64,000 nt of DNA from Yoonia ponticola (lineage in GTDB: Bacteria > Pseudomonadota > Alphaproteobacteria > Rhodobacterales > Rhodobacteraceae). The translations under genes were made by a program, and so were the position numbers. Each line of letters opens with the position of its first letter. Position 1 is the first letter of the stretch. Positions 8,726 to 21,062 of the stretch are shown piece after piece. Location: the NCBI RefSeq assembly GCF_014199395.1, contig NZ_JACIJM010000003.1, forward strand, positions 248,001-312,000, read 5' to 3'. The notes beneath the pieces were generated by a model. It made no database searches. It was given only the letters and a program-made list of their open reading frames with translations, and was not told the DNA's origin.

Positions 8726-10117
8726 TTAACTGCCGCCCTTCAAGATCCGCAAATGTTTGCCGGTCTCGTCCAGCAGCGCGCCATAGGTCGCGATCCCTCG
8801 CCCCTCAAGCGCTTGGATCATCGCGATCAGCGCTGCCGCCGTAGCCTTTGCGTCGCCCAGTGCCGTATGCCGCGCGGCGTCGGGGATCGTGATATTCAGA
8901 CGGTCGCAAATTGCGTCCAACGTATGCACCGCCGACCCGCCAAATACGGCGGCAGACAGCAGCACCGTGTCCACGACCGGATTGTCAAAAACCAAGCCCG
9001 CAGCCTCTGCTTCTTTCGTCAAAAACGCCATGTCGAACGGCGCATTATGCGCGACCAACACCGCGTCTTTGGCAAAGCTGTGGAACTGCGTGCAAACGGG
9101 CTGAAAACTGGGCGCGTCTTTCACCATACTGTCGTCGATCCGGTGCACATCCGTTGATCGCGCGGGGATCAAAACGCCCGGATTAACCAAGCTTTCGAAC
9201 ACTTCGCCTGCGACCACTTTGCCGTTCACGATCCGCACCGCTCCCAATTGCACAACCGCGTCCCGCGCAGGGTCCAGCCCTGTGGTTTCAGTGTCGAACA
9301 CCACAAAAACCAAGTCGCGCAGACGTGTCGCGCTTAACTCCGACGACGCAGTTGGCGTCAGCAAATCAAAATCATACGTCAGCGGGCGCGCCTCGCTAAG
9401 CAACGCGCGCGGCTCTAGCATCAGCGTATAGCCCTGCCCCGCACCAAACGTCCGAATGCGCCCAGAATACACATCACCACAATGCGCCTTTACCTTGATT
9501 TCGAGCCGGTTTTCCTGCGCCTCAGCCATCTGCGCGAGCGCCTTCAAAATTGGGGCCTCTTTCAGATAATTGAACACTGACGTCTTCAGCTTTGCCGTTC
9601 CCACACGTTCCATCATTGCCGCTGCTTGCCCGTCATAGAGCACGATCTGGTGCTCCGCGCTGACAAGGATCGTGGCGACGGGAATATCCGTCAGAATGGC
9701 GATTAACCGTTCGCTTTGCTGTGCTAGCTGCTTGATTTTAGGGTCATCTTCAACGCCACTGCGTTCGTCCATCGCAGCCTGCAACGCCGTCACGGCTGGT
9801 GCCAAATCACCCAAGTATTTCGCAGCTTTTGCATCCAGCGGCGCACCGCAATCGGTATGCGCCCGTACCCGCAAATTGGCTGCAATCGCTTCCACAGGTT
9901 TGCTGACGTGATCGTCAAACAGCAACCAAATCGCCGTCGTGACCCCCAGCATCCCAAAGCCTGCAACAATCCCGACGGTCATCAGCGCGGCCCAATCATC
10001 CGCATGGGTTAACTGCCGCGAACCAAACCAAAGTGCGACCAAAATCACAGCAAGGCTGCCAAGCCCGAACAGACAGAACACCAGAAAAACCCGTATGCGC
10101 AAACTGAGGTGGGTCAT
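8726..10117 (-). CDS. Membrane-anchored DnaQ-like 3'-5' exonuclease
   Basis: A 463-residue protein with two N-terminal membrane helices (about 8-32 and 44-66), a HAMP/PAS-like central part (ILTDIPVATILVSAEHQIVL, 141-160) and a C-terminal DEDDh exonuclease domain. All catalytic blocks are present: D275 and E277 in FDTETTGLDP, VAHNAPFD with D362, and H417/D422 in RHTALGDA. It is therefore an active-looking nuclease attached to the membrane and not a replicative epsilon subunit. It is the last gene of the short-chain-acid block; this pairing with a DUF294 protein and a VC_2705-type symporter recurs in other proteobacteria. Substrate unknown. Confidence 0.88.
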   Translation of the reverse strand: MTHLSLRIRVFLVFCLFGLGSLAVILVALWFGSRQLTHADDWAALMTVGIVAGFGMLGVTTAIWLLFDDHVSKPVEAIAANLRVRAHTDCGAPLDAKAAKYLGDLAPAVTALQAAMDERSGVEDDPKIKQLAQQSERLIAILTDIPVATILVSAEHQIVLYDGQAAAMMERVGTAKLKTSVFNYLKEAPILKALAQMAEAQENRLEIKVKAHCGDVYSGRIRTFGAGQGYTLMLEPRALLSEARPLTYDFDLLTPTASSELSATRLRDLVFVVFDTETTGLDPARDAVVQLGAVRIVNGKVVAGEVFESLVNPGVLIPARSTDVHRIDDSMVKDAPSFQPVCTQFHSFAKDAVLVAHNAPFDMAFLTKEAEAAGLVFDNPVVDTVLLSAAVFGGSAVHTLDAICDRLNITIPDAARHTALGDAKATAAALIAMIQALEGRGIATYGALLDETGKHLRILKGGS

Positions 10118-10118
10118 A

Positions 10119-10640
10119 TCACATCACGTTGCACGCAGTTGTCAGGATCGGCGCATCTGCATCCATCTGCAGCCAATCGGTATTCAGAATTTCACCATCA
10201 GCGCCAAATTCAGCGCCGTCTACCAGATCAGCACGGGCATTTTCGGCGCAATCAAACAGCGCTGGCACCTTTGCGATCTGTTGCCAGCGACCGTAAAAAA
10301 CGAGGTCCACAAGCCGTTGATCCGGCCTGTCAGGATGGATACGCAGACTGCCCTGATCTACCGCGACAAAGCGGCTCACATAGGGTTTTATATAGGTCCA
10401 AGGGCGGTAGACTTGTTTGTTCTCAATCGCTTCTGCCACCACAAATTGCCCCGGCATCGTGGCCGTCGTCCGGCTGAACCAGCTATATTCGCTGGTGATC
10501 GTGGCAAGCAGCATTGCCCCGCCACCCGCAACCGGCACCAACCACGACGGCAACCGCCCCTTCAGGACACGGTTCACCGCCCACATGAAAAGAGCTGCCG
10601 CAACGCCTGCGAAAATCGTGCCGATCAGTTCGTAAAACAT
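10119..10640 (-). CDS. Hypothetical membrane protein (173 aa)
   Basis: Not assigned to a family with confidence. Two membrane helices at about 5-21 and 33-49 are followed by a soluble domain of about 120 residues (WLQMDADAPILTTAC near the end). The start ATG at 10640 has AGGAG at proper spacing. Its stop lies one base before the exonuclease start, and it follows the DUF294 gene by 18 bp, so the three genes are almost certainly translated from one mRNA. A role with its neighbours at the membrane is inference only. Confidence 0.75.
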   Translation of the reverse strand: MFYELIGTIFAGVAAALFMWAVNRVLKGRLPSWLVPVAGGGAMLLATITSEYSWFSRTTATMPGQFVVAEAIENKQVYRPWTYIKPYVSRFVAVDQGSLRIHPDRPDQRLVDLVFYGRWQQIAKVPALFDCAENARADLVDGAEFGADGEILNTDWLQMDADAPILTTACNVM

Positions 10641-10658
10641 CGGGCTTCTCCTGTTAAT

Positions 10659-12485
10659 TTACGCAAGCACACCGCGCCCCTGCATCAATGCAGATTGCAT
10701 CGTTTTGATCACCACAAACGCATCGCGCAGATGGCTTCGCTCAAACCCCGACAGCGTCGCGGGGGGTAGAAAATTATCGGGCGCGAGGTCTTGTTTGATC
10801 AGGTTTGCTTGGTGTTGCAAGCGCGTTTGCGCTACCAAATCATACGCCGCCACCAGATCAAGCCCGCCGCTGTTGCTGATGATCCCACCGTCCAGCGCCG
10901 CTTTCAAGCGCGCACGGGTATTCAGCGCGGACAGTTGTCCCGCCAGCGCATACATGCGGCCCAGATCAACGACAGGAATAACGCCGTTCAGCTTCATATC
11001 AATCGTGTCGCGATGTTCGCCCGCGCGGATCGTAGACAAGCCGCGCAACAGCCCCAAAGGCGTGGCATGGGTCAGCGCATTTGTCGCCATATGTGCGGTG
11101 AAAATCGAATTACTGGCCGCCAGTCGCAAGGTTTCCGCCTGAAGATCGGCAAACAACGTCTCGTCCCCACCGATGGGCCGCAGGTCGAACATCACTGACG
11201 CCAACATCTGCGCTTCTTTGCTCGGGTTCGCGATCCAGCCTTTGAAATACGCGGTCCAAACTGACAAAGGCTGGCACCAACGCGGGTTCGTCGCCATCAT
11301 ATCGCCCGGACAATACACATAGCCGCAAGCGTCCAAACCATCGCTGACGAACTGCGCAAATGGGGCGAAATAGGCGGCATCCGCATCCGAAATCCCGTCT
11401 TCCAAGATCAAACAATTGTCCTGATCGGACACGCCCGTCTGCTCTTGCCGCCCTTGAGATCCACAGGCCAGCCACAGATACCGCGCGGGTGGTGTCCCGA
11501 ATTTATCCTCGGCCATGCGCAGCAACCGCCGCGTCACCACGTCCGCAATATCCGTAATTAACCGCGTCACGACATCGTGCCGATTACCTGTCGCCACCAG
11601 ACTGACCAGCAGTTTCGGAATGCGGGCCGTGATCGCAGCTAGCTCTTGCACGGTCGTTGCTTGGGCAGCTTCCGCCACGAAAGTCGACGCATGAGACGCC
11701 TGATACCGCGTCAAATCCGTCTGCGTCACAATCCCGACCAAACGCCCCGCCGAGATCACTGGCAAATGCCCTAGACGGTTTTCCATCATCAGATGCAGCA
11801 CGTCCGACCCAATCGCGGCAGGCGTCAAAACCCGTGGATTGTTGGTCATGATCGCGGCAATCGGTGTGGTCATCGGCAAGTCGTCAACCACGGCTTTATT
11901 CACAAAGTCACGCAGCGTGACGATGCCGCGCAATGCGTCACCATCAACGACACAGAGGCTCGAAATCTTCTTGTCCCGCATCATGCGGGCGGCGTCTTGG
12001 ATCGGGGTGTCTTCGGCGCAAACAACTGGGTTTGTCGACATCAGCGCATCGACCCGCACACGGGTCAGATCACCGGGTTTCGAGGCGACTTGCAGCTTGG
12101 CATTGCCAGAACGGCGATAAAACCGTCCGAACGGTTCGCAATCGACCAGCAGCCCTTGAAACAACGTGCTTGGGATCACCAACAGACGGCAGTCTTCTTG
12201 GGCTTTGGCATTCGTGGCGGCGCGTCCGTCGCGCAACAAGCCCCGTTCACCAAACGAATTTTCACGGCGTAGCAGCGAGATCGGCGCGGCATTTTCATCC
12301 GTCACAGCAACCTGCCCGCTTTCGATGATATACAGCCCTCTGAGCTGATCACCGATCACATAGATATCGCGGCCCTTGGCCACATCAATCTGTTCACATT
12401 GGTCTAAAATCTGTGCGCGTGTCACATCGGTCAACACGTCGTAGGGGTGCAAGTAGGACAGGATGGATGGGTTATCGATCGTCAC
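10659..12485 (-). CDS. DUF294 nucleotidyltransferase-like protein with cNMP-binding and CBS domains
   Basis: A 608-residue cytosolic sensor protein. Order of domains: cyclic-nucleotide-binding-like fold (about 12-128), two CBS motifs (about 145-265, adenine-nucleotide sensing in other families), a nucleotidyltransferase domain of GlnD type with GSQGRQEQTGVSDQDN at 342-357, and a helical DUF294 C-terminal domain (about 465-600). The GS-x10-DxD metal motif is intact, so transferase activity is plausible. The start codon is GTG with AAGGG upstream. It lies between the symporter and the exonuclease; in other bacteria the same neighbour set is found, which suggests regulation of solute uptake. Confidence 0.85.
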   Translation of the reverse strand: MTIDNPSILSYLHPYDVLTDVTRAQILDQCEQIDVAKGRDIYVIGDQLRGLYIIESGQVAVTDENAAPISLLRRENSFGERGLLRDGRAATNAKAQEDCRLLVIPSTLFQGLLVDCEPFGRFYRRSGNAKLQVASKPGDLTRVRVDALMSTNPVVCAEDTPIQDAARMMRDKKISSLCVVDGDALRGIVTLRDFVNKAVVDDLPMTTPIAAIMTNNPRVLTPAAIGSDVLHLMMENRLGHLPVISAGRLVGIVTQTDLTRYQASHASTFVAEAAQATTVQELAAITARIPKLLVSLVATGNRHDVVTRLITDIADVVTRRLLRMAEDKFGTPPARYLWLACGSQGRQEQTGVSDQDNCLILEDGISDADAAYFAPFAQFVSDGLDACGYVYCPGDMMATNPRWCQPLSVWTAYFKGWIANPSKEAQMLASVMFDLRPIGGDETLFADLQAETLRLAASNSIFTAHMATNALTHATPLGLLRGLSTIRAGEHRDTIDMKLNGVIPVVDLGRMYALAGQLSALNTRARLKAALDGGIISNSGGLDLVAAYDLVAQTRLQHQANLIKQDLAPDNFLPPATLSGFERSHLRDAFVVIKTMQSALMQGRGVLA

Positions 12486-12545
12486 TGGTGCAGGCCCTTA
12501 TGTGTGGTGGAACCGGCGACAGATGCGCCGCCGGTTCCGATGGTT

Positions 12546-14351
12546 TTAGTGATCAACCGCGCCGCCTGCACCCGCTGGAATGCGGACGCTTTCGACAAGG
12601 TCTTTGATCTCTTGTGGTGTGTCTTTGGTGGACAACGACACGATGTACGCCACCGCAAAGTTGATCGCCGCACCAACAGCACCAATCGCAGTGGACTGGA
12701 TACCCAGCATTGATCCTTCGACCGTATCAGGGAACGAGTTGGTGCCGTCGATGAACAACCAGCCTTTGTGCATAAAGATGTAGACCAGCGTAAAGCCGAG
12801 ACCAGCCAACATACCACATACAGCACCTACGTTGTTCACACGTGTCGAGAAGATCCCCATCATCAGAGCAGGGAAGATCGACGCCGCCGCCAGACCAAAG
12901 GCCAGCGCAACTGTTTGCGCCGCAAAGCCCGGTGGGTTCAGACCAAGGATCGTTGCCACCACAATCGCCACAGCCATCGCAACACGTGCTGACATCAGCT
13001 CTGCCTTTTCAGACATGTTTGGTGTCAATTGACCCTTGAGCAGATCGTGCGACACAGCAGACGAGATCGCCAGAAGCAAACCCGCCGCCGTTGACAAAGC
13101 CGCCGCAAGACCACCCGCCGCCATGAGACCGATGACCCAGCTTGGCAGGTTCGCGATTTCAGGGTTCGCCAAAACAAGGATGTCTTGGTTAAAGTTGGTC
13201 AACTCGTTGCCTACCCACCCGTTAGCCGCAGCACGTTCAGCCATTTCCGCGTTCTGATCGTTGTAGTACTGGATCATGCCGTCGCCGTTTTTGTCTTCCC
13301 ATCCAAGAAGACCGGTTGTCTGCCATGTTTTCATCCAGTCATACCGTGCGTCTTCTTCGATCATCTGTACAGATACCGCGTCACCTTGCGTGCCATTTGG
13401 CCACATCAGGTTTGTGATATTCAGACGTGCCATCGCACCAACAGCAGGGGCTGTGAGGTAGAGAAGTGCAATGAAAACAAGCGCCCAACCCGCAGACCAA
13501 CGCGCATCAGATACCTTTGGCACCGTAAAGAAGCGCATGATCACGTGCGGCAGGCCCGCTGTACCAATCATCAGTGACAGCGTGAACAAGACCATGTTCA
13601 GGTTGTCTTTGTGCTGGTCGGTGTAGCTTGCGAAACCCAATTCTGTGACGATTTGGTCCAGCTTTTGCAGCAGATACACGCTACCTTCGCCGCCCGATGC
13701 TTCTGGTGAGATGTGGCTAAACAGACCCAATGCAGGGATCGGCGTGCCAACCAGTTGCAACGAAATAAAGACCGCAGGAATTGTGAAGGCAAGGATCAAC
13801 ACAACGTATTGGGCCACTTGGGTGTAAGTCACACCTTTCATGCCGCCAAAAACCGCGTAAGCAAACACGACGCAAGCGCCGATCAGCAAGCCAGCTGTGT
13901 TTGAAATCTCGAGGAAGCGACCAAAGGCCACGCCTACGCCCGTCATCTGACCGATCACGTAAGTCGTTGATGCAACGATCAAACATACCACGGCAACCAT
14001 ACGTGCGGTTGGTGAATAGAAGCGATCACCGATGAATTCGGACACGGTGAATTTGCCGAACTTGCGCAGGTAAGGTGCGAGCAAAAGCGCCAACAAAACG
14101 TAGCCGCCTGTCCAGCCCATCAAGTAGGACGAGTTGTCGTAACCTGTGAACGCGATCAGACCCGCCATCGAGATAAACGACGCCGCAGACATCCAGTCCG
14201 CCGCAGTTGCCATCCCGTTGGTGACAGGGTGAACACCCCGACCCGCCGCGTAAAATTCTGACGTGGACCCGGCACGGGCCCAAATCGCGATGCCGATGTA
14301 GATCGCAAAGGACGCGCCTACAAACAGCAAGTTAATTACAAACTGACTCAT
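12546..14351 (-). CDS. Sodium/solute symporter, acetate-permease-like (VC_2705 type)
   Basis: Large inner-membrane subunit of a sodium:solute symporter, 601 residues and about 13 helices. Seen: GRGVHPVTNGMATAADWMSA near the N-terminus (SSS family signature region), WTGGYVLLALLLAPYLRKFG and FAGGMKGVTY-type text. A characteristic hydrophilic insertion (about 340-385, rich in D/N/E) separates helices, as in the VC_2705 subgroup that partners with a DUF4212 subunit. That subunit is encoded 4 bp upstream. Together with acs and prpE in the same block, uptake of acetate, propionate or similar acids is the most likely role; lactate or pyruvate is possible. Confidence 0.88.
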   Translation of the reverse strand: MSQFVINLLFVGASFAIYIGIAIWARAGSTSEFYAAGRGVHPVTNGMATAADWMSAASFISMAGLIAFTGYDNSSYLMGWTGGYVLLALLLAPYLRKFGKFTVSEFIGDRFYSPTARMVAVVCLIVASTTYVIGQMTGVGVAFGRFLEISNTAGLLIGACVVFAYAVFGGMKGVTYTQVAQYVVLILAFTIPAVFISLQLVGTPIPALGLFSHISPEASGGEGSVYLLQKLDQIVTELGFASYTDQHKDNLNMVLFTLSLMIGTAGLPHVIMRFFTVPKVSDARWSAGWALVFIALLYLTAPAVGAMARLNITNLMWPNGTQGDAVSVQMIEEDARYDWMKTWQTTGLLGWEDKNGDGMIQYYNDQNAEMAERAAANGWVGNELTNFNQDILVLANPEIANLPSWVIGLMAAGGLAAALSTAAGLLLAISSAVSHDLLKGQLTPNMSEKAELMSARVAMAVAIVVATILGLNPPGFAAQTVALAFGLAAASIFPALMMGIFSTRVNNVGAVCGMLAGLGFTLVYIFMHKGWLFIDGTNSFPDTVEGSMLGIQSTAIGAVGAAINFAVAYIVSLSTKDTPQEIKDLVESVRIPAGAGGAVDH

Positions 14352-14355
14352 TGTG

Positions 14356-14613
14356 TTATTCCTCTACGCCGAATTCACGATCCAGCTTGTTCATCCGCCA
14401 AGCGTAGAAAAAGATGATCGCGAGAAACACGAGGATGGACCCTTGCTGGGCCACCCAAAATCCGATGTCGACGCCACCGATCTGCACACCTTGCAGCAAG
14501 GGGCGCAGCAAAATGCCAAAGCCGAAAGGGACGATGGCCCAGATGACCAAACTCACCTTAATAATGCGCAAATTGGCTGCCCAATATGCGCCTGGTTCCG
14601 GTTTCTCACTCAT
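14356..14613 (-). CDS. Sodium/substrate symporter small subunit, DUF4212
   Basis: An 85-residue inner-membrane protein with two helices (about 20-42 and 50-74). Members of this family partner with VC_2705-type symporters. The final residues FYAWRMNKLDREFGVEE are typical. It overlaps the adk stop by 4 bp (ATGA) and is 4 bp from the symporter start, so stoichiometric translation is likely. Confidence 0.87.
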   Translation of the reverse strand: MSEKPEPGAYWAANLRIIKVSLVIWAIVPFGFGILLRPLLQGVQIGGVDIGFWVAQQGSILVFLAIIFFYAWRMNKLDREFGVEE

Positions 14614-15365
14614 TGTGTTTCCTCCAGTTGTGTTGTTTTTGCCTGCTTGTCAGTGCTTTGCACCCCGCGCACATCCATCACGATGGGACGGATGATCTGG
14701 CGTAAAGCATCGGTAATCGCGTCGATGTCGCCCATCGCGTCCAGCGTATGCAGCGATCCTTCGGCGTCGTAGAACGAGATCAGCGGTGCGGTCTCTTTGT
14801 GATACGCCTTCAAGCGGTGACGCACGGTGTCCGCATTATCATCCGCACGACGGCGGAACTTCGTGGCCCCACATTTGTCACAAGTGCCATCAACGACGGG
14901 ACGCTTAAACGTCTCGTGATAGCCCTCGCCGCAGCCTTCGCAGGTGTGGCGACCGGAAATCCGGACCACCATCGCCTCGTCAGCGACCTCTAGACTGATC
15001 GCCGCGTTCACCTTTGCGCCCTTCGCTGCAAGCAGCCCGGTTAATGCTTCGGCTTGCGGGATCGTGCGCGGGAAACCGTCAAGAATGACGCCCGCCGCAC
15101 AATCAGGATCACCCAAACGGTCGCTGAGGATATTCAGCACGATATCGTCGCTGACCAGACCGCCCGCTTCCATCACGGTTTTCGCGGCTTTGCCCGCATC
15201 GGTGCCAGCGGCGACCGCTTCGCGCAGCAGATCGCCAGTGGACAGTTGGACAAGACCGAACTTTTCCTCAAGCCGTTTGGCCTGCGTCCCCTTGCCCGCA
15301 CCCGGCGGCCCAAGCAGGATCAAGACCGGCATAGTGCTTTGCGGCATTTTGCTTGTGTCAGACAT
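14610..15365 (-). CDS. adk: Adenylate kinase, zinc-type lid
   Basis: Interconverts ATP + AMP and 2 ADP. The 251-residue protein has the P-loop GPPGAGKGT at 19-27, DGFPR at 96-100 and a long LID domain with four cysteines (C142, C145, C162, C165) that would bind zinc. The N-terminus is 7-11 residues longer than usual; an internal ATG at codon 12 would give MPVLILLGPPGAGKG, so the start is not certain. Its place between acs and the symporter is informative: Acs and PrpE release AMP, which adenylate kinase recycles. Housekeeping adk in many relatives sits in the ribosomal protein region, so this may be a second copy. Confidence 0.92.
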   Translation of the reverse strand: MSDTSKMPQSTMPVLILLGPPGAGKGTQAKRLEEKFGLVQLSTGDLLREAVAAGTDAGKAAKTVMEAGGLVSDDIVLNILSDRLGDPDCAAGVILDGFPRTIPQAEALTGLLAAKGAKVNAAISLEVADEAMVVRISGRHTCEGCGEGYHETFKRPVVDGTCDKCGATKFRRRADDNADTVRHRLKAYHKETAPLISFYDAEGSLHTLDAMGDIDAITDALRQIIRPIVMDVRGVQSTDKQAKTTQLEETQ

Positions 15366-15416: not shown

Positions 15417-17378
15417 TCACGCCTTACCCTTTCTATTTTCGATCAGCTCGTCGACGACCGACGGATCAGCCAGCGTGGACGTGTCGCCCAATGCGCCAAA
15501 GTCGTCCTCTGCGATTTTCCGCAAGATCCGGCGCATGATTTTGCCTGACCGTGTTTTCGGCAAACCCGGTGACCATTGGATCACATCCGGTGCAGCAATC
15601 GGGCCGATTTCGGTGCGCACCCATGTGCGCAACTCTTGGCGCAGCTCTTCGGATGGTTCTTGGTCGTTCATCAACGTGACGTAGCAATAGATGCCTTGGC
15701 CTTTGATTTCATGCGGATAACCAACCACAGCAGCTTCGGCGACTTTCGGGTGTGCAACCAAAGCGGATTCGACTTCTGCGGTCCCCATCCGGTGGCCGGA
15801 TACGTTGATCACGTCGTCGACGCGGCCTGTGATCCAGTAGTCGCCGTCTTCGTCGCGGCGGCAACCGTCACCTGTGAAGTAGTAGCCTTTGTAATCCGAG
15901 AAATAAGTCTTCTCGAAGCGGTCATGGTCGCCCCAAATGGTGCGCATTTGACCGGGCCAACTGCCTTTGAGGCACAGAACACCTTCGCAAGCGGTGTCGT
16001 GGATTTCGTCGCCTGATGTCGGCTCAAGAACCACAGGCTCGATCCCAAAGAACGGCTTCATCGCAGAGCCCGGTTTCAGCGCATGTGCGCCCGGCAATGG
16101 CGTCAACAAGTGACCGCCGGTTTCCGTCTGCCACCATGTATCGACGATGGGCAATTTGCCGCCGCCAACCACGTCGTTGTACCAGTTCCACGCTTCAGGG
16201 TTGATCGGCTCGCCGACTGTGCCCAGCACTTTGAGGCTGCTTAGATCACACTTTTCAACGAACTCAGGGCCTTTGGCCATCAACGCACGGATCGCTGTTG
16301 GCGCGGTGTAGAATTGGTTCACCTTATGCTTTTCGCAGACCTGCCAGAACCGGCTCGCGTCCGGATACGTCGGCACGCCTTCGAACATCACGGTTGTCGC
16401 ACCATTGGCCAGTGGGCCGTAGACGATATAGCTGTGGCCCGTGACCCAGCCCACGTCAGCGGTACACCAGTACACATCGCCTTCGTGGTAATCGAACACC
16501 AACTCTTGGGTCATCGCGGCGTAAACGAGATAGCCACCGGACGTATGCACAACACCTTTTGGCTGACCGGTTGAGCCGGATGTGTAGAGAATGAACAGCG
16601 GATCTTCGGCGCCGACTTCAACAGCTTCGCATGTCGGTGCAGCATCAGCAGCAAGCGCGCCGTAATCCAGATCGCGCCCCTCTACCCAAGTCGTCTGCCC
16701 GCCAGTCCGTTTCACCACCAGACATTTCACAGTGTCCTTGCAGTGCAGTAACGCGGCATCAGCATTGGACTTCAGCGGTGTCTGACGACCACCACGCGGG
16801 GCATAATCCGCTGTGATCAGTACCTTGGCGTCAGACCCGTTGACCCGTGCGGCCAATGCGTCTGGCGAAAAGCCCGCAAAAACAATCGAGTGGATCGCAC
16901 CAAGACGCGCACAGGCCAGCATGGCATAAGCGGCCTCTGGGATCATCGGCAGGTAAATCACAACGCGGTCGCCTTTGCCCACGCCTTGGTCTTTCAGCAC
17001 GTTCGCCATGCGGCACACGGATTCGTGCAACGCCTTGTAGGTGATGTGCTGCGCGTCTTCATCCGGATTGTCCGGCTCAAAGATGATCGCAGTTTGGTCG
17101 CCACGTGTCGCCAGATGACGGTCAACGCAGTTCGCAGAGACGTTCAGCGTCGCATCGGCGAACCAGTTGATATGCACGTTGCCCAAAGTGAAATCGACGT
17201 CGCGCACGCTGGAATAAGGTTTGATCCAGTCGATCCGCTTCCCCTGCTCGCCCCAAAACGCATCAGGATCAGCCAAAGAGGCCGCGTACATTTCGTCGTA
17301 TTTCGCCTCGGTGATATGTGCGTGCGCGATGGTCGCGGCGCTCGGGGCGTAGGTCTTTGCTTTGGTATCGGCGGACAT
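15417..17378 (-). CDS. acs: Acetyl-CoA synthetase
   Basis: Activates acetate to acetyl-CoA with ATP, releasing AMP and pyrophosphate. The 653 residues match the family. Seen: [20 protein letters not shown] (P-loop-like adenylation motif), [10 protein letters not shown], and [12 protein letters not shown] with the catalytic lysine K613 that is reversibly acetylated in well-studied enzymes. AAGGAA precedes the ATG. It lies 78 bp after prpE and 51 bp before adk on the same strand. Confidence 0.96.
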
Positions 17379-17456: not shown

Positions 17457-19352
17457 CTAAGACAGCGTTTCGCCGATGCCCGCGATGCGGGCGGCGATAG
17501 CATCCAGTGTTGCAGGATCGTCAATCGTGGCTGGCAATTTCCAAGGTTTGCTGTCGGCAATCGATGCCATCGTCGCACGCAACACCTTGCCAGAACGGGT
17601 CTTGGGCAATGCGTCGATGACGATACAGCGTTTGAAAGCGGCGACTGGTCCGATTTCCTTGCGGACCAAAGCCACACATTCCTTGGCGATTTCTTCTTCG
17701 GATCGGTCGGTGCCATTGTTAAGGCAAACCAACCCAAGCGGGGCTTGGCCTTTCAGCGCATCCCCAATCCCGATGACCGCACATTCAGCGACATCGGGGT
17801 GGTTCGACAGAACTTCTTCCATCGCACCGGTGGATAGACGGTGGCCCGCGACGTTGATCACATCGTCGGTGCGGGCCATGATATACAGGTAGCCGTCGGC
17901 GTCTTTGATACCCGCGTCGCCGGTTTCGTAGTAGCCGGGAAAGGCGTTCAAATACGCGGATTTAAACCGCTCTTCGGCGTTCCACAACGTCGGCAACGCA
18001 CCGGGCGGCAACGGCAGTTTGATCGCAATCGCGCCCAATTCGCCCGCAGGCACCGGATGGCCGCCCTCGTCAAGAATTTCGATATCGTAGCCCGGCATCG
18101 GAACCGCGGGCGAGCCTAGCTTGACGGGCAGTTGTTCGATCCCAAGCGGGTTCGCGGCAATCGCCCAGCCCGTTTCGGTCTGCCACCAATGGTCGATCAC
18201 TGGTTTCTGCAGATGCTGTTGCGCCCATTTGATCGTGTCCGGATCAGCGCGTTCACCTGCGAGGAACAGGGCGTTAAACCCGCTCAGGTCGTATTTCTTA
18301 ACGTATTCAGCCTTGGGGTCTTCCCGCTTGATCGCACGCAAGGCGGTTGGCGCTGTGAACAGCGATTTGACGTTGTGATCTTGGATCACGCGCCAGTAGG
18401 TGCCTGCATCTGGGGTGCCAATCGGTTTGCCTTCGAACACGACCGTCGTGCAGCCAGCCAGCAGCGGACCGTAGCAAATATAGCTATGCCCCACGACCCA
18501 ACCGACATCAGACGCGGCCCAGAACACATCGCCTTGCGACACGTTGTAGATGTTCTTCATCGTCCAGTTCAGTGCAACCATATGGCCGCCATTGTGGCGC
18601 ACAACGCCCTTTGGCTGACCCGTCGTGCCAGAGGTATAGAGGATATAAAGCGGATCAGCACCGCCCACAGGCGTGCAGCCCACAGGTGTCGCACTTGCAA
18701 CTTCATCAGCCCAATCCAGATCATATCCGGAAACCATATCGGCCTGCGTTTGGGGCCGTTGCAGAACCACAGTAAAGTCGGGTTTATGCGTCGCCCGAGC
18801 GATCGCATCATCAAGCAACGGTTTGTAGGCGATGATCTTTTGACCTTCGATCCCGCAGGACGCGGCCAAAATCGCCTTGGGTGTCGCATCGTCGATCCGC
18901 ACCGCCAGTTCATGCGCCGCAAAGCCGCCAAACACCACCGAATGGATCGCACCGATCCGCGCGCAAGCCAGCATCGCGACCAATGCTTCGGGGGCCATCG
19001 GCATATAAATCACGACGCGGTCGCCCTTGACGACACCGCGGCTGGTCAGAACGCCTGCCAAACGGGAGACACGGTCTTGCAGGTCCGCAAAGGTGATTTT
19101 GGTCACGCTATCTGTCACTGGACTGTCGTGGATGATCGCAACCTGATCGCCGCGCCCTGCCTCGACATGACGATCAACGGCGTTGTAGCATGTGTTGCAA
19201 ACCCCATCCGGAAACCACGTCGTCATAGGTGCATTGCTGTTGTCCATCACAACGCTGGGTTTTTTCACCCAGTCAATGGCGGTCGCAGCTTCAGCCCAGA
19301 ACGCCTCTGGGTTGTTTTGCCAGCCTGCAAAGGTCTTTGCGTAAGTCGTCAA
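17457..19352 (-). CDS. prpE: Propionyl-CoA synthetase
   Basis: AMP-forming ligase of 631 residues that activates propionate (and often acetate or acrylate). Seen: [32 protein letters not shown], and [14 protein letters not shown] with catalytic K589. The sequence text (VARADDVINVAGHRLSTGAMEE-like) and the shorter N-terminus separate it from the neighbouring acs. The start is TTG, supported by a G-rich Shine-Dalgarno (GGGGGGGAGA) about 6 bases upstream; no ATG gives the family N-terminus MTTYAKTFAGWQ. First gene of the minus-strand block, divergent from a short-chain-acid regulator. Confidence 0.92.
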   Translation of the reverse strand: MTTYAKTFAGWQNNPEAFWAEAATAIDWVKKPSVVMDNSNAPMTTWFPDGVCNTCYNAVDRHVEAGRGDQVAIIHDSPVTDSVTKITFADLQDRVSRLAGVLTSRGVVKGDRVVIYMPMAPEALVAMLACARIGAIHSVVFGGFAAHELAVRIDDATPKAILAASCGIEGQKIIAYKPLLDDAIARATHKPDFTVVLQRPQTQADMVSGYDLDWADEVASATPVGCTPVGGADPLYILYTSGTTGQPKGVVRHNGGHMVALNWTMKNIYNVSQGDVFWAASDVGWVVGHSYICYGPLLAGCTTVVFEGKPIGTPDAGTYWRVIQDHNVKSLFTAPTALRAIKREDPKAEYVKKYDLSGFNALFLAGERADPDTIKWAQQHLQKPVIDHWWQTETGWAIAANPLGIEQLPVKLGSPAVPMPGYDIEILDEGGHPVPAGELGAIAIKLPLPPGALPTLWNAEERFKSAYLNAFPGYYETGDAGIKDADGYLYIMARTDDVINVAGHRLSTGAMEEVLSNHPDVAECAVIGIGDALKGQAPLGLVCLNNGTDRSEEEIAKECVALVRKEIGPVAAFKRCIVIDALPKTRSGKVLRATMASIADSKPWKLPATIDDPATLDAIAARIAGIGETLS

Positions 19353-19589: not shown

Positions 19590-19613
19590 ATGCAACAAAA
19601 TGATAGACGAAAC

Positions 19614-19630
19614 GTGCAAATTGCGAAAAA
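19614..19630 (+). promoter_or_regulatory. Candidate tandem operator before the regulator gene
   Basis: GTGCAAA immediately followed by TTGCGAAAAA, ending 10 bp before the regulator ATG. The two units resemble each other and the GTGCGAAAA upstream of prpE, as expected for an autoregulated ScfR/RamB-type regulator controlling both directions. Confidence 0.35.
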
Positions 19631-19640
19631 GTGTAATTCA

Positions 19641-21062
19641 ATGACCAACACAAGAAAAATCTTCGCCGGAGCCCGAATTCGCCTTTTGCGACAGAGTCAC
19701 AACTTGACGCAAGCTCTTTTTGCACAGCAGCTCTCGATCTCCACAAGCTACTTGAATCAAATAGAAAATAACCAGAGGGCGTTGTCAGGTTCAGTCATTC
19801 TCGCTCTGGTTGATACGTTCAACTTTGACCTGTCAGAATTGGCCTTGGATGGCGCGGGAAAGGTGTCCGTCGACCTTCAAGAAATCCTCAATGATCCGAT
19901 TTTCACCGAAAACAAGGTCCTGACCCAAGAAATAAAAATCGCAGCGACCAATGCCCCAAATATTTCAAAGGCGTTTTTGGACCTGTACCGCATGTTTCAG
20001 AAGTCCCGCGAGCAATTGGGCGAGGTCGATAACGCGCTGAAAGACCACGAAACGTCGCTTGCACCCCTGCCCTACGAAGAGGTCCGCGACTATTTTCACT
20101 ACACCGACAACTACATCGACGCGCTGGATCGCGCGGCCGAAGCCTTCGCGCTGTCGCTGCCTCGTTCGGATGCAGGCCGTCACGCGGATATGGTGGACTA
20201 TCTGCTGAAAACCCACGGCGTGAAAGTCGTGATGCGCAAGGACAAACCCGGCTCAAGCACCCTACGCGCCTATGACCCGACGACCAAAACCATCCACCTG
20301 AATGCAGCCTCGTCTATGGCCACGAATTTGTTTCAACTCGCCTATCAAGTTGGCCTGATCGAACAGAGCGACCTCATTGAACAACTACTGGACGACGCGG
20401 CCTTCCACACCGATGTCGCCCGCGATGTGTGCCGCATGACCTTTGCCAACTATTTTGCTGGCGCCGTCGTGCTGCCCTACTCTGAATTTGCGCAAGCCGC
20501 AAAAGAACAACGGCACGATCTGGAAAACCTTGCGTTCCAGTTTGATGCCAGCCTCGAACAAGTCTGCCACCGCCTGAGCAACCTGCAACGCCCCGGCGAA
20601 AAAGGCATTCCGTTCTATTTTGTCCGCATCGATCAGGCGGGCAACATCACGAAACGCCATTCAGCCACAACGCTGCAATTCACCCGCTTTGGCGGCGGCT
20701 GCCCGCTGTGGAACGTGCATCATGCGTTTCAATCCCCCGGTGAAATCCTGCGGCAACTGGCCGTGACGCCCGATGGCATTCAATACCTCTCGCTTGCCTT
20801 TGTGCAAACGAAACGGGTGTCGGGGTTCAAATCACCCGTGCGGAAATATGCAATTGGGTTGGGTTGTGAAATCAAACATGCGGGCCATGTGGTCTACGCT
20901 GATGATTTGGACGTCACTGAGGTCAAGAACTTTGACCCTATCGGCACGAGCTGCCGGATTTGCGAACGGATTGATTGCTTTCACCGCTCTGTGCCGCCGA
21001 TTGGCAAGCAGATCGTTGTGGATCACAACAAACGTGGCAGCGTGCCGTTCAAGATTTCCTGA
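19641..21062 (+). CDS. ScfR/RamB-type short-chain fatty acid regulator
   Basis: Transcription regulator of 473 residues. It has an XRE-type helix-turn-helix at about 5-65 (LTQALFAQQLSISTSYLNQI), an ImmA/IrrE-like central domain (about 180-300) and a C-terminal DUF2083-type domain ending in the cysteine cluster CRICERIDCFHRS. This architecture defines the short-chain fatty acyl-CoA regulators (RamB, PrpR, PccR and relatives), which sense acyl-CoA esters. An in-frame ATG 51 bp earlier exists, but the start at 19641 matches the family N-terminus. Divergent from prpE-acs, its likely target, and convergent with a TRAP transporter. Confidence 0.9.
   Translation: MTNTRKIFAGARIRLLRQSHNLTQALFAQQLSISTSYLNQIENNQRALSGSVILALVDTFNFDLSELALDGAGKVSVDLQEILNDPIFTENKVLTQEIKIAATNAPNISKAFLDLYRMFQKSREQLGEVDNALKDHETSLAPLPYEEVRDYFHYTDNYIDALDRAAEAFALSLPRSDAGRHADMVDYLLKTHGVKVVMRKDKPGSSTLRAYDPTTKTIHLNAASSMATNLFQLAYQVGLIEQSDLIEQLLDDAAFHTDVARDVCRMTFANYFAGAVVLPYSEFAQAAKEQRHDLENLAFQFDASLEQVCHRLSNLQRPGEKGIPFYFVRIDQAGNITKRHSATTLQFTRFGGGCPLWNVHHAFQSPGEILRQLAVTPDGIQYLSLAFVQTKRVSGFKSPVRKYAIGLGCEIKHAGHVVYADDLDVTEVKNFDPIGTSCRICERIDCFHRSVPPIGKQIVVDHNKRGSVPFKIS

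Follow-up and report, generated by a model that had tools for sequence, protein, structure and literature searches.

The window analysed here is a 64,000-nucleotide stretch of the 3.73 Mb genome of Yoonia ponticola, part of contig NZ_JACIJM010000003.1 (our contig C3). On its minus strand, directly downstream of a sodium:solute symporter (SSS) and its small DUF4212 subunit, lie the genes of a DUF294 protein with a predicted GlnD-type nucleotidyltransferase, of a two-helix protein and of a membrane-anchored exonuclease of the DEDDh type. Comparison across genomes shows that the DUF294 protein is co-inherited with the exonuclease, that both keep their active sites, and that they travel with transporters of the SSS and BCCT families. 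Our tentative interpretation is that these two enzymes may form a module dedicated to controlling the sodium-coupled symporter next to them at the post-translational level. The preliminary description of this locus had suggested an opposed pair of nucleotidylating and de-nucleotidylating enzymes; co-inheritance, conserved sites, the tie to symporters and published genetics in Pseudomonas putida speak for such a pair, with nucleotidylation as its putative chemistry.

Pairing of the Transferase and the Exonuclease

The survey drew on two genome samples, one from the order (101 genomes) and one from the phylum (398 genomes). Around DUF294_C matches, 120 loci of at most 19.5 kb were chosen among the listed matches across genera, their neighbours not being known beforehand; 36 of them come from the window's own family, and the window itself brings the set to 121 loci. 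Separately, 80 named alphaproteobacterial loci were kept from 576 confirmed DUF294 alignment matches. Relatedness among the genomes softens all counts given below.

An exonuclease homologue is present in 115 of the 121 loci, and in 109 it starts within 1.5 kb downstream of the DUF294 gene on the same strand. Among the named alphaproteobacterial loci, the exonuclease lies downstream in 80/80, the two-helix protein is present in 80/80 and an SSS in 79/80. The arrangement is conserved well above chance. From the side of the symporter, TIGR03648 is matched above its cut-off in 122 of the 398 phylum genomes, and DUF294_C (E < 1e-20) occurs in 96 of these 122 genomes versus 49 of the 276 others (Fisher test, 2e-31, a p-value that overstates the association because the genomes are related). 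Of 126 symporter matches, 59 lie within 12 kb of a listed DUF294_C match, weaker DUF294_C matches being unlisted. Gene fusion of the two enzymes was considered and rejected: not one open reading frame in the 121 loci matched both, and a long frame in genome G006 is an effect of overlapping frames.

The DUF294 loci in which no exonuclease was found are L099, L138, L145, L150, L163, L170 and L318. Two of them, L099 (by match) and the Skermanella locus L318 (by annotation), keep DUF4212 and SSS and have a small protein after DUF294. Conversely, a DnaQ-like exonuclease gene (L263:8941-9555) is located about 1.5 kb from a DUF4212-SSS pair in a genome without DUF294_C.

Association with Transporters

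With the window's symporter as the query, an SSS was detected in 81 of the 121 loci, 66 of them of the DUF4212 type and 15 ActP-like by similarity. Of the 40 loci without such an SSS, a BCCT carrier is present in 15 and a more distantly related SSS in three, which brings the loci with SSS or BCCT to 99/121 (62/84 outside the window's family); the Pfam scan of the loci without SSS took in 20 neighbours rather than every gene, and other transporters may be missed. The 14 genomes that contain the BCCT loci show 52 BCCT matches in about 59 Mb, from which, by our arithmetic, roughly 0.7 BCCT genes would be expected by chance among the 40 loci versus the 15 observed. A tree was built from 99 DUF294 sequences, the set of 121 minus 22 from the window's own family; on it the transporter labels cluster, with 23 changes versus a shuffled mean of 48.8. 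The BCCT-linked sequences group in a single clade: of its 19 rows, 15 bear the BCCT label, two bear the ActP label (assigned by distance) and have a BCCT gene as well, and two have neither. In six genomes (G257, G389, G384, G469, G393 and G376), a DUF4212-type SSS and a BCCT carrier each have a copy of their own beside them. The pair follows transporters, not acetate.

Annotated plasmid records give the same association in named organisms. The order DUF4212, SSS, DUF294, hypothetical protein, exonuclease is found in Ruegeria TM1040, and Paracoccus denitrificans PD1222 has a response regulator inserted before the exonuclease. In Methylocella tundrae, DUF485 and a cation acetate symporter (ActP) precede DUF294 and the exonuclease, while in Salinivibrio kushneri the two follow a sodium/sugar symporter in an operon of galactose genes. 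In Vibrio penaeicida an SSS follows the exonuclease at a distance of about 2 kb, and a DMT transporter lies in the interval. The pair of Vibrio cyclitrophicus belongs to an alginate/uronate cluster, some 5 kb from an SSS. Three further plasmid regions are unannotated, and the PLSDB gene tables are incomplete.

The DUF294 Protein

Membership in the DUF294 family rests on PF03445 (164.7 bits, cut-off 21) and PF10335 (136.4 bits, cut-off 22.5); at E 0.01 the protein matches the Pfam families cNMP, CBS, DUF294 and DUF294_C and no other. Together with the active-site residues, these matches bear out the earlier assignment of cNMP-like, CBS and intact GlnD-type domains: G342, S343, R346 and Q355 are conserved in 121/121 aligned homologues, and D354 and D356 each in 120/121. 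The protein has the GS(x)n DxD signature of GlnD and GlnE and a C-terminal helical domain (PF10335), but, by its Pfam matches, no domain for a removal activity on the same chain; it is not filed as GlnD or GlnE. In a sequence search of the PDB, the best 60 of 70 matches all fell on the cNMP or the CBS part. DUF294_C and GlnD_UR_UTase belong to one Pfam clan (CL0291), and DUF294_C is described as fused to a GlnD/E-like nucleotidyltransferase (PMC3710099).

The CBS pair carries the G-h-x-T/S-x-x-D motif, with G187 conserved in 121/121 sequences, T190 in 120/121, D193 in 116/121 and D257 in 102/121. This motif is typical of CBS pairs that bind adenosine ligands, and such binding is predicted here. 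The phosphate-binding cassette FGE...R, typical of CRP-like cAMP-binding domains, is present in the window's protein, but its Glu (residue 80) varies across the family: among the 113 rows with this domain, only 37 keep it. A search for class III cyclases limited to PF00211 found none in the genome, other cyclase classes lying outside that search. The conserved CBS residues, the poorly kept cassette Glu and the lack of a PF00211 cyclase make an adenosine compound at the CBS pair a better guess for the ligand than cAMP. For the earlier idea that the CBS domains sense adenylate charge, the conservation of the motif is favourable; its tie to acetate is not general, as the occurrence of the pair in a galactose operon and in alginate clusters illustrates.

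The Exonuclease and Its Putative Sensor Forms

The AlphaFold2 model of the exonuclease (mean predicted local distance difference test score, pLDDT, 86) comprises two N-terminal helices, a PAS-like domain and a DnaQ-like domain, and Foldseek matches it to DnaQ/epsilon/PolC exonucleases. Among 115 homologues, D275, E277 and H417 are invariant and D422 is found in 114. The third catalytic acid (residue 362) is Asp in 75/115 and Glu in 40/115, including all 15 BCCT-labelled exonucleases; judged from the alignment, Glu is a variant of the DEDDh set. With this set of residues and an RNase H-like fold (Foldseek to epsilon) the protein is a DEDDh exonuclease by class, with predicted 3'-5' hydrolysis of nucleic acid. 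The domain at residues about 126-236 has no Pfam match; PAS-like is our own reading of the order of strands and helices in the model. Five long homologues scanned with Pfam all contain RNase_T, together with PAS matches below the Pfam cut-offs.

Among 195 exonucleases in 201 loci, 30 are long (open reading frame of at least 600 aa). A CheY-like response-regulator gene adjoins 23/30 of these versus 0/165 of the shorter ones, and 23/30 match the kinase-like core of the exonuclease at locus L069. No regulator was found beside five core-bearing long exonucleases (L066, L068, L070, L083 and L125), while those of L139 and L146 have no core and seem long only since their open reading frame extends upstream over DUF294. 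Against HisKA, the core reaches a best E of 0.13 in the five long proteins scanned, and by eye the phospho-acceptor His is missing from its usual place in the core sequences inspected. Across the 23 cores that were aligned a single His is invariant; it corresponds to H438 of the L069 protein and lies near the C-terminal end of the core. The 463-aa form of the window has neither core nor response regulator, and no gene of the window's operon matches a kinase; we infer that core and regulator were lost together in this form. In the Paracoccus versutus row (L324:6037-12893), a kinase gene, which matches HisKA, HATPase and, weakly, SSF, stands after DUF294 and a small gene and before a response regulator and a PAS-exonuclease, a possible phosphorelay into the exonuclease.

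In DnaQ/epsilon, ExoX and RNase T the fold and the catalytic residues are those of the window's exonuclease. It differs from them by the two additional N-terminal helices and the PAS-like domain, its long relatives by the kinase-like core and the response regulator that usually neighbours them, and 40/115 homologues by Glu as the third acid. Symporter-histidine kinases of the CrbS/MxtR type likewise join a sodium symporter domain to signalling (compare the Paracoccus versutus kinase). Unlike the module proposed here, they act on transcription via a response regulator (PMC9927547), and the operon of the window has no kinase match.

Proposed Mechanism

In the mechanism that we envisage, the DUF294 domain, as a GlnD-type transferase gated by the CBS pair, would place a nucleoside monophosphate (NMP) on the symporter or on an intimate partner of it, and this attachment would lower transport. 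The membrane-tied DEDDh domain, gated by PAS or, in the long forms, by the kinase-like core with its response regulator, would hydrolyse the phosphodiester, release 5'-NMP and restore transport. If a protein oxygen served as the leaving group, the chemistry of a DEDDh exonuclease would amount to hydrolysis of a protein-O-NMP diester; a precedent is the DnaQ epsilon subunit, which hydrolyses p-nitrophenyl-5'-TMP, an aryl nucleotide ester akin to tyrosyl-NMP.

GlnD catalyzes the reversible uridylylation of PII and GlnE the adenylylation of glutamine synthetase; removal is carried out on the same chain, by an HD domain in GlnD and by a second transferase domain in GlnE. The DUF294 protein resembles them in its GS...DxD site, in its ligand-sensing domains on the same chain and in the clan that DUF294_C shares with GlnD_UR_UTase (PMC3710099). 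It would be unlike them in that, on the reading proposed, removal has moved to a separate, membrane-bound DEDDh exonuclease.

The closest described system is that of P. putida, where PP_0354, a CBS-domain protein, and PP_0353, an RNase_T protein, are encoded in one operon; the operon adjoins actP and yjcH in P. aeruginosa and lies near glcB in P. putida (PMC9927547). What is known of this pair is the growth of mutants on carbon sources, and its homology to the window's pair is deduced from these descriptions and from locus L155, which has a malate synthase G gene nearby. For Pflu5625 of P. fluorescens, the annotation gives three kinds of domain, cAMP-binding, CBS and nucleotidyltransferase (PMC5715377); like the P. 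putida pair, it is a target of MxtR/ErdR or CrbS/R. The statement that the system had not been functionally described was thus nearly right: the P. putida genes have been deleted and growth was measured, with no activity reported in the available part of the paper (PMC9927547). On 20 mM pyruvate, growth was impaired by deletion of pp_0353 or actP-I, not of pp_0354 (PMC9927547). Both actP-I and pp_0353 matter for fitness on 5 mM acetate, according to Rand et al. as cited there (PMC9927547). An exonuclease mutant that resembles the actP-I mutant, next to a silent pp_0354 mutant, is the asymmetry that an inhibitory writer and an eraser would predict, and the model further predicts rescue in a pp_0353/pp_0354 double mutant. 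Henriquez et al. propose mRNA degradation for the exonuclease, with other mechanisms not excluded, and list acs, actP and pp_0354 as MxtR/ErdR targets (PMC9927547).

Possible but doubtful, in our estimate, is the more general claim of a widespread writer/eraser code in membrane transport, in which DUF294 enzymes would nucleotidylate SSS and BCCT symporters shut and DEDDh de-nucleotidylases, some of them membrane sensors by virtue of PAS, kinase-like core and response regulator, would reopen them. To our knowledge, a DnaQ-type fold would then serve for the first time to erase the nucleotidylation of a protein. If true, it would provide a general post-translational switch of sodium-coupled import (organic acids, galactose, the betaine/choline carrier family), of which we know no described example, and a role for the large DUF294 family, for which the open-licence literature found gives only predicted activity; the published single-mutant phenotypes already fit the model. 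As far as our searches show, three points are new: the proposed eraser role of the exonuclease, the extension of the pair to BCCT and other carriers, and the putative sensor forms. In the open-licence literature no paper was found on DUF4212, for the name PF10335, for DUF4212/VC_2705 phrases, or joining CBS domain, nucleotidyltransferase, DnaQ and symporter; nothing relevant by title links BCCT with CBS domain, exonuclease or nucleotidyltransferase, and the pairing of DUF294 with symporter yielded only work on GlnR in Bacilli.

Several observations weigh against the proposed control of a neighbouring symporter. The nucleotidylation step is our inference, with no adduct, activity or target residue known. 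Neither SSS nor BCCT is seen in 22/121 loci, nor in the 14 kb viewed in Vibrio tritonius and Vibrio pelagius; Hymenobacter has the pair the other way round, in the vicinity of glycosidases and an MFS gene, and Cytobacillus has it near proline genes, again with no SSS or BCCT in view. These last two records show that the pair also occurs in Bacteroidota and Bacillota. The Paracoccus versutus pair beside an MFS gene and a kinase lends no support, nor does Skermanella, where DUF4212, SSS and DUF294 are present and the exonuclease is absent from the viewed region. In six of the 121 loci no exonuclease was found and in another six it lies elsewhere or on the other strand, and 26 of the 122 symporter genomes lack DUF294_C. 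As to the genetics, growth on 20 mM acetate or succinate is independent of pp_0353 and pp_0354, and in P. putida actP-I is not a neighbour of the pair (PMC9927547). Deletions of pflu5625 (DUF294-type) and of actP in P. fluorescens had negligible effects on growth on acetate (PMC5715377). Finally, SSS and BCCT belong to different Pfam families; a target site shared by both would have to be a structural one, to have arisen by convergence or to reside on a third protein.

Search for a Target

A comparison of 64 DUF294-linked SSS and 64 DUF4212 sequences with 11 and 11 from genomes without DUF294 revealed seven SSS and three DUF4212 columns that differ, none of them convincing as a target residue, which also counts against the proposal. 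Symporters beside DUF294 mostly share a conserved C-terminal tail with a terminal His (62/69 of the DUF4212 type and 15/15 ActP-like), against only 6/20 TIGR03648 symporters of genomes without DUF294_C. ActP-type matches from genomes without DUF294 number 23 (59-89% identity); E. coli ActP and all 21 of the readable ones end in a similar His tail. Its occurrence in genomes without DUF294 implies that the tail predates the association and is not specific to the module, and as a module-specific target it was rejected.

The small subunit, which the preliminary description had offered as a possible target, fails as a general one: the 15 loci labelled BCCT gave no DUF4212 match at all, and one ActP-type symporter that accompanies the pair has DUF485 in its place. 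The two-helix protein was rejected as well, as it occurs in 33/398 genomes versus 145 with DUF294_C (E < 1e-20); its charge pattern, moreover, would put its domain outside the cytoplasm.

Alternative Explanations

Because the exonuclease domain resembles nucleic-acid exonucleases in sequence and fold, control may act on RNA: the DUF294 protein would add to, and the exonuclease trim, an RNA that governs the transporter (e.g., its mRNA), or the exonuclease alone would degrade mRNAs. We consider this unlikely. The known substrates of GlnD_UR_UTase are proteins; a partner protein close by is suggested by the exonuclease's membrane anchor, by its PAS or kinase-like parts and by the distinct copies that one genome keeps for distinct transporters, and a lone exonuclease leaves the steady pairing with the transferase unexplained. 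Degradation of mRNA is nonetheless what the authors of the P. putida study propose, and the silent pp_0354 deletion also fits an exonuclease acting alone (PMC9927547), while the clan shared by DUF294_C and GlnD_UR_UTase (PMC3710099) again argues for a protein target.

A quite unlikely alternative is regulation of a transporter-linked process in which no opposed chemistry takes place, one protein being a binding regulator or the pair acting on a shared metabolic enzyme (e.g., Acs), with co-location that merely reflects a common regulon. Within the window's family acs and adk are usually in the operon, and the common MxtR/ErdR control of acs, actP and pp_0354 agrees with such a regulon (PMC9927547). 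Both active sites are, however, conserved over 121 and 115 sequences, and the pair is found next to BCCT carriers and within clusters of galactose or alginate genes as well.

Improbable, in our view, is a second messenger, a small nucleotide signal for transporter activity or expression made by the DUF294 protein and degraded by the exonuclease. A transferase and a hydrolase side by side, with CBS and cNMP-like domains of the ligand-binding type, would suit this scheme, and DEDDh enzymes of the oligoribonuclease type cut dinucleotides; yet a diffusible signal would cross-talk between the SSS and BCCT copies in one genome, and the substrates of GlnD and GlnE are proteins. That the genes cluster by chance or for historical reasons alone, with no functional link to the transporter, would suit the 22 loci without an SSS or BCCT match; it is very improbable and was already disfavoured, given counts far above expectation and the repeated association with different transporter families.

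The Two-Helix Protein

Although the preliminary description rightly placed the two-helix protein in the locus, its tie to the pair did not hold, and it tracks the symporter instead: it occurs in 33/398 genomes, all 33 with a TIGR03648 symporter, and in 32 of them within 5 kb of that symporter (the exception is G297). In five genomes (G150, G173, G237, G253 and G283) it stands beside the symporter with no listed DUF294_C within 12 kb. It looks like a symporter accessory outside the writer/eraser chemistry. C131 and C170 are invariant in alignments of 24 and 40 rows, and these cysteines, with the positive charges between the two helices, suggest that the C-terminal beta-rich domain is probably periplasmic. 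The protein has no Pfam or NCBIfam match, and a PDB sequence search with it matched nothing. The best Foldseek match of its model, a weak one to Haemophilus protein E (E 8e-3, template modelling score about 0.2-0.4), was not used.

The Likely Operon and Its Genes

The gene list and coordinates of the preliminary description proved correct by reading frames, Pfam and NCBIfam, with all five reading frames on the minus strand and separated by gaps of 1 to 60 bp. On this strand the order is second acyl-CoA ligase, acs, adk, DUF4212, SSS, DUF294 protein, two-helix protein and exonuclease, with spacings from a 4-bp overlap up to 78 bp, and these eight genes are likely one operon, from the second acyl-CoA ligase, with its upstream end up to 19352, through the exonuclease. 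TIGR03648 and TIGR03647 are both matched above their cut-offs in adjacent genes, which identifies a VC_2705-family symporter with its DUF4212 subunit. Among the named loci found, the nearest is that of an uncultured Rhodobacteraceae isolate (DUF294 identity 98%).

Table 1. Features of the locus in window coordinates.
Feature	Position	Strand	Basis
Membrane-anchored exonuclease, 463 aa	8726..10117	-	Two N-terminal helices, linker, PAS-like, DEDDh (DnaQ-like); Pfam RNase_T 3e-36
DEDDh domain of exonuclease (residues 272-429)	8831..9304	-	RNase_T; D275, E277, D362, H417, D422
PAS-like domain of exonuclease (residues about 126-236)	9410..9742	-	AlphaFold2 element order; sub-cut-off PAS in homologues
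Two long N-terminal helices of exonuclease (residues about 6-87), predicted transmembrane and linker	9857..10102	-	AlphaFold2 secondary structure; hydrophobicity by eye
Two-helix protein "tm2", 173 aa, C-terminal beta-rich domain	10119..10640	-	AlphaFold2 mean pLDDT 91.7
cNMP-CBS-CBS-DUF294-DUF294_C protein, 608 aa, GlnD-type nucleotidyltransferase	10659..12485	-	Pfam and conserved residues
DUF294_C domain (residues 461-600)	10686..11105	-	PF10335 8e-40
DUF294 nucleotidyltransferase domain (residues 288-423)	11217..11624	-	PF03445 1e-48; G342 S343 ... D354 Q355 D356
CBS pair of DUF294 protein (residues about 145-261)	11703..12053	-	PF00571 2e-27; GxxT/SxxD at 187-193, 251-257
cNMP-binding-like domain of DUF294 protein (residues 35-113)	12147..12383	-	PF00027 3e-14
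Sodium:solute symporter, VC_2705 family, 601 aa	12546..14351	-	Pfam SSF; TIGR03648 807.7 bits, cut-off 320.75
DUF4212 small symporter subunit, 85 aa	14356..14613	-	PF13937 4e-31; TIGR03647 7e-31
Adenylate kinase (adk)	14610..15365	-	Pfam, NCBIfam
Acetyl-CoA synthetase (acs)	15417..17378	-	TIGR02188 999 bits, cut-off 725
Second acetate/propionate-type acyl-CoA ligase, first gene of likely operon	17457..19352	-	NCBIfam, below equivalog cut-offs
Divergent RamB/ScfR-type regulator	19590..21062	+	PF09856 3e-63; NF038139 438 bits, below its cut-off 700

The genome carries two adenylate kinase copies above the Pfam cut-off, one of which is the adk of the operon; beside the AMP-forming acs, its product probably recycles AMP. 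In nine of 15 named loci examined (of 80), which were picked for a contig end nearby, the draft contig starts inside the end stretch of acs, just upstream of adk (L194, L204, L218, L222, L229, L241, L244, L249 and L253), as if acs were a near-identical repeat of a sequence elsewhere in those genomes.

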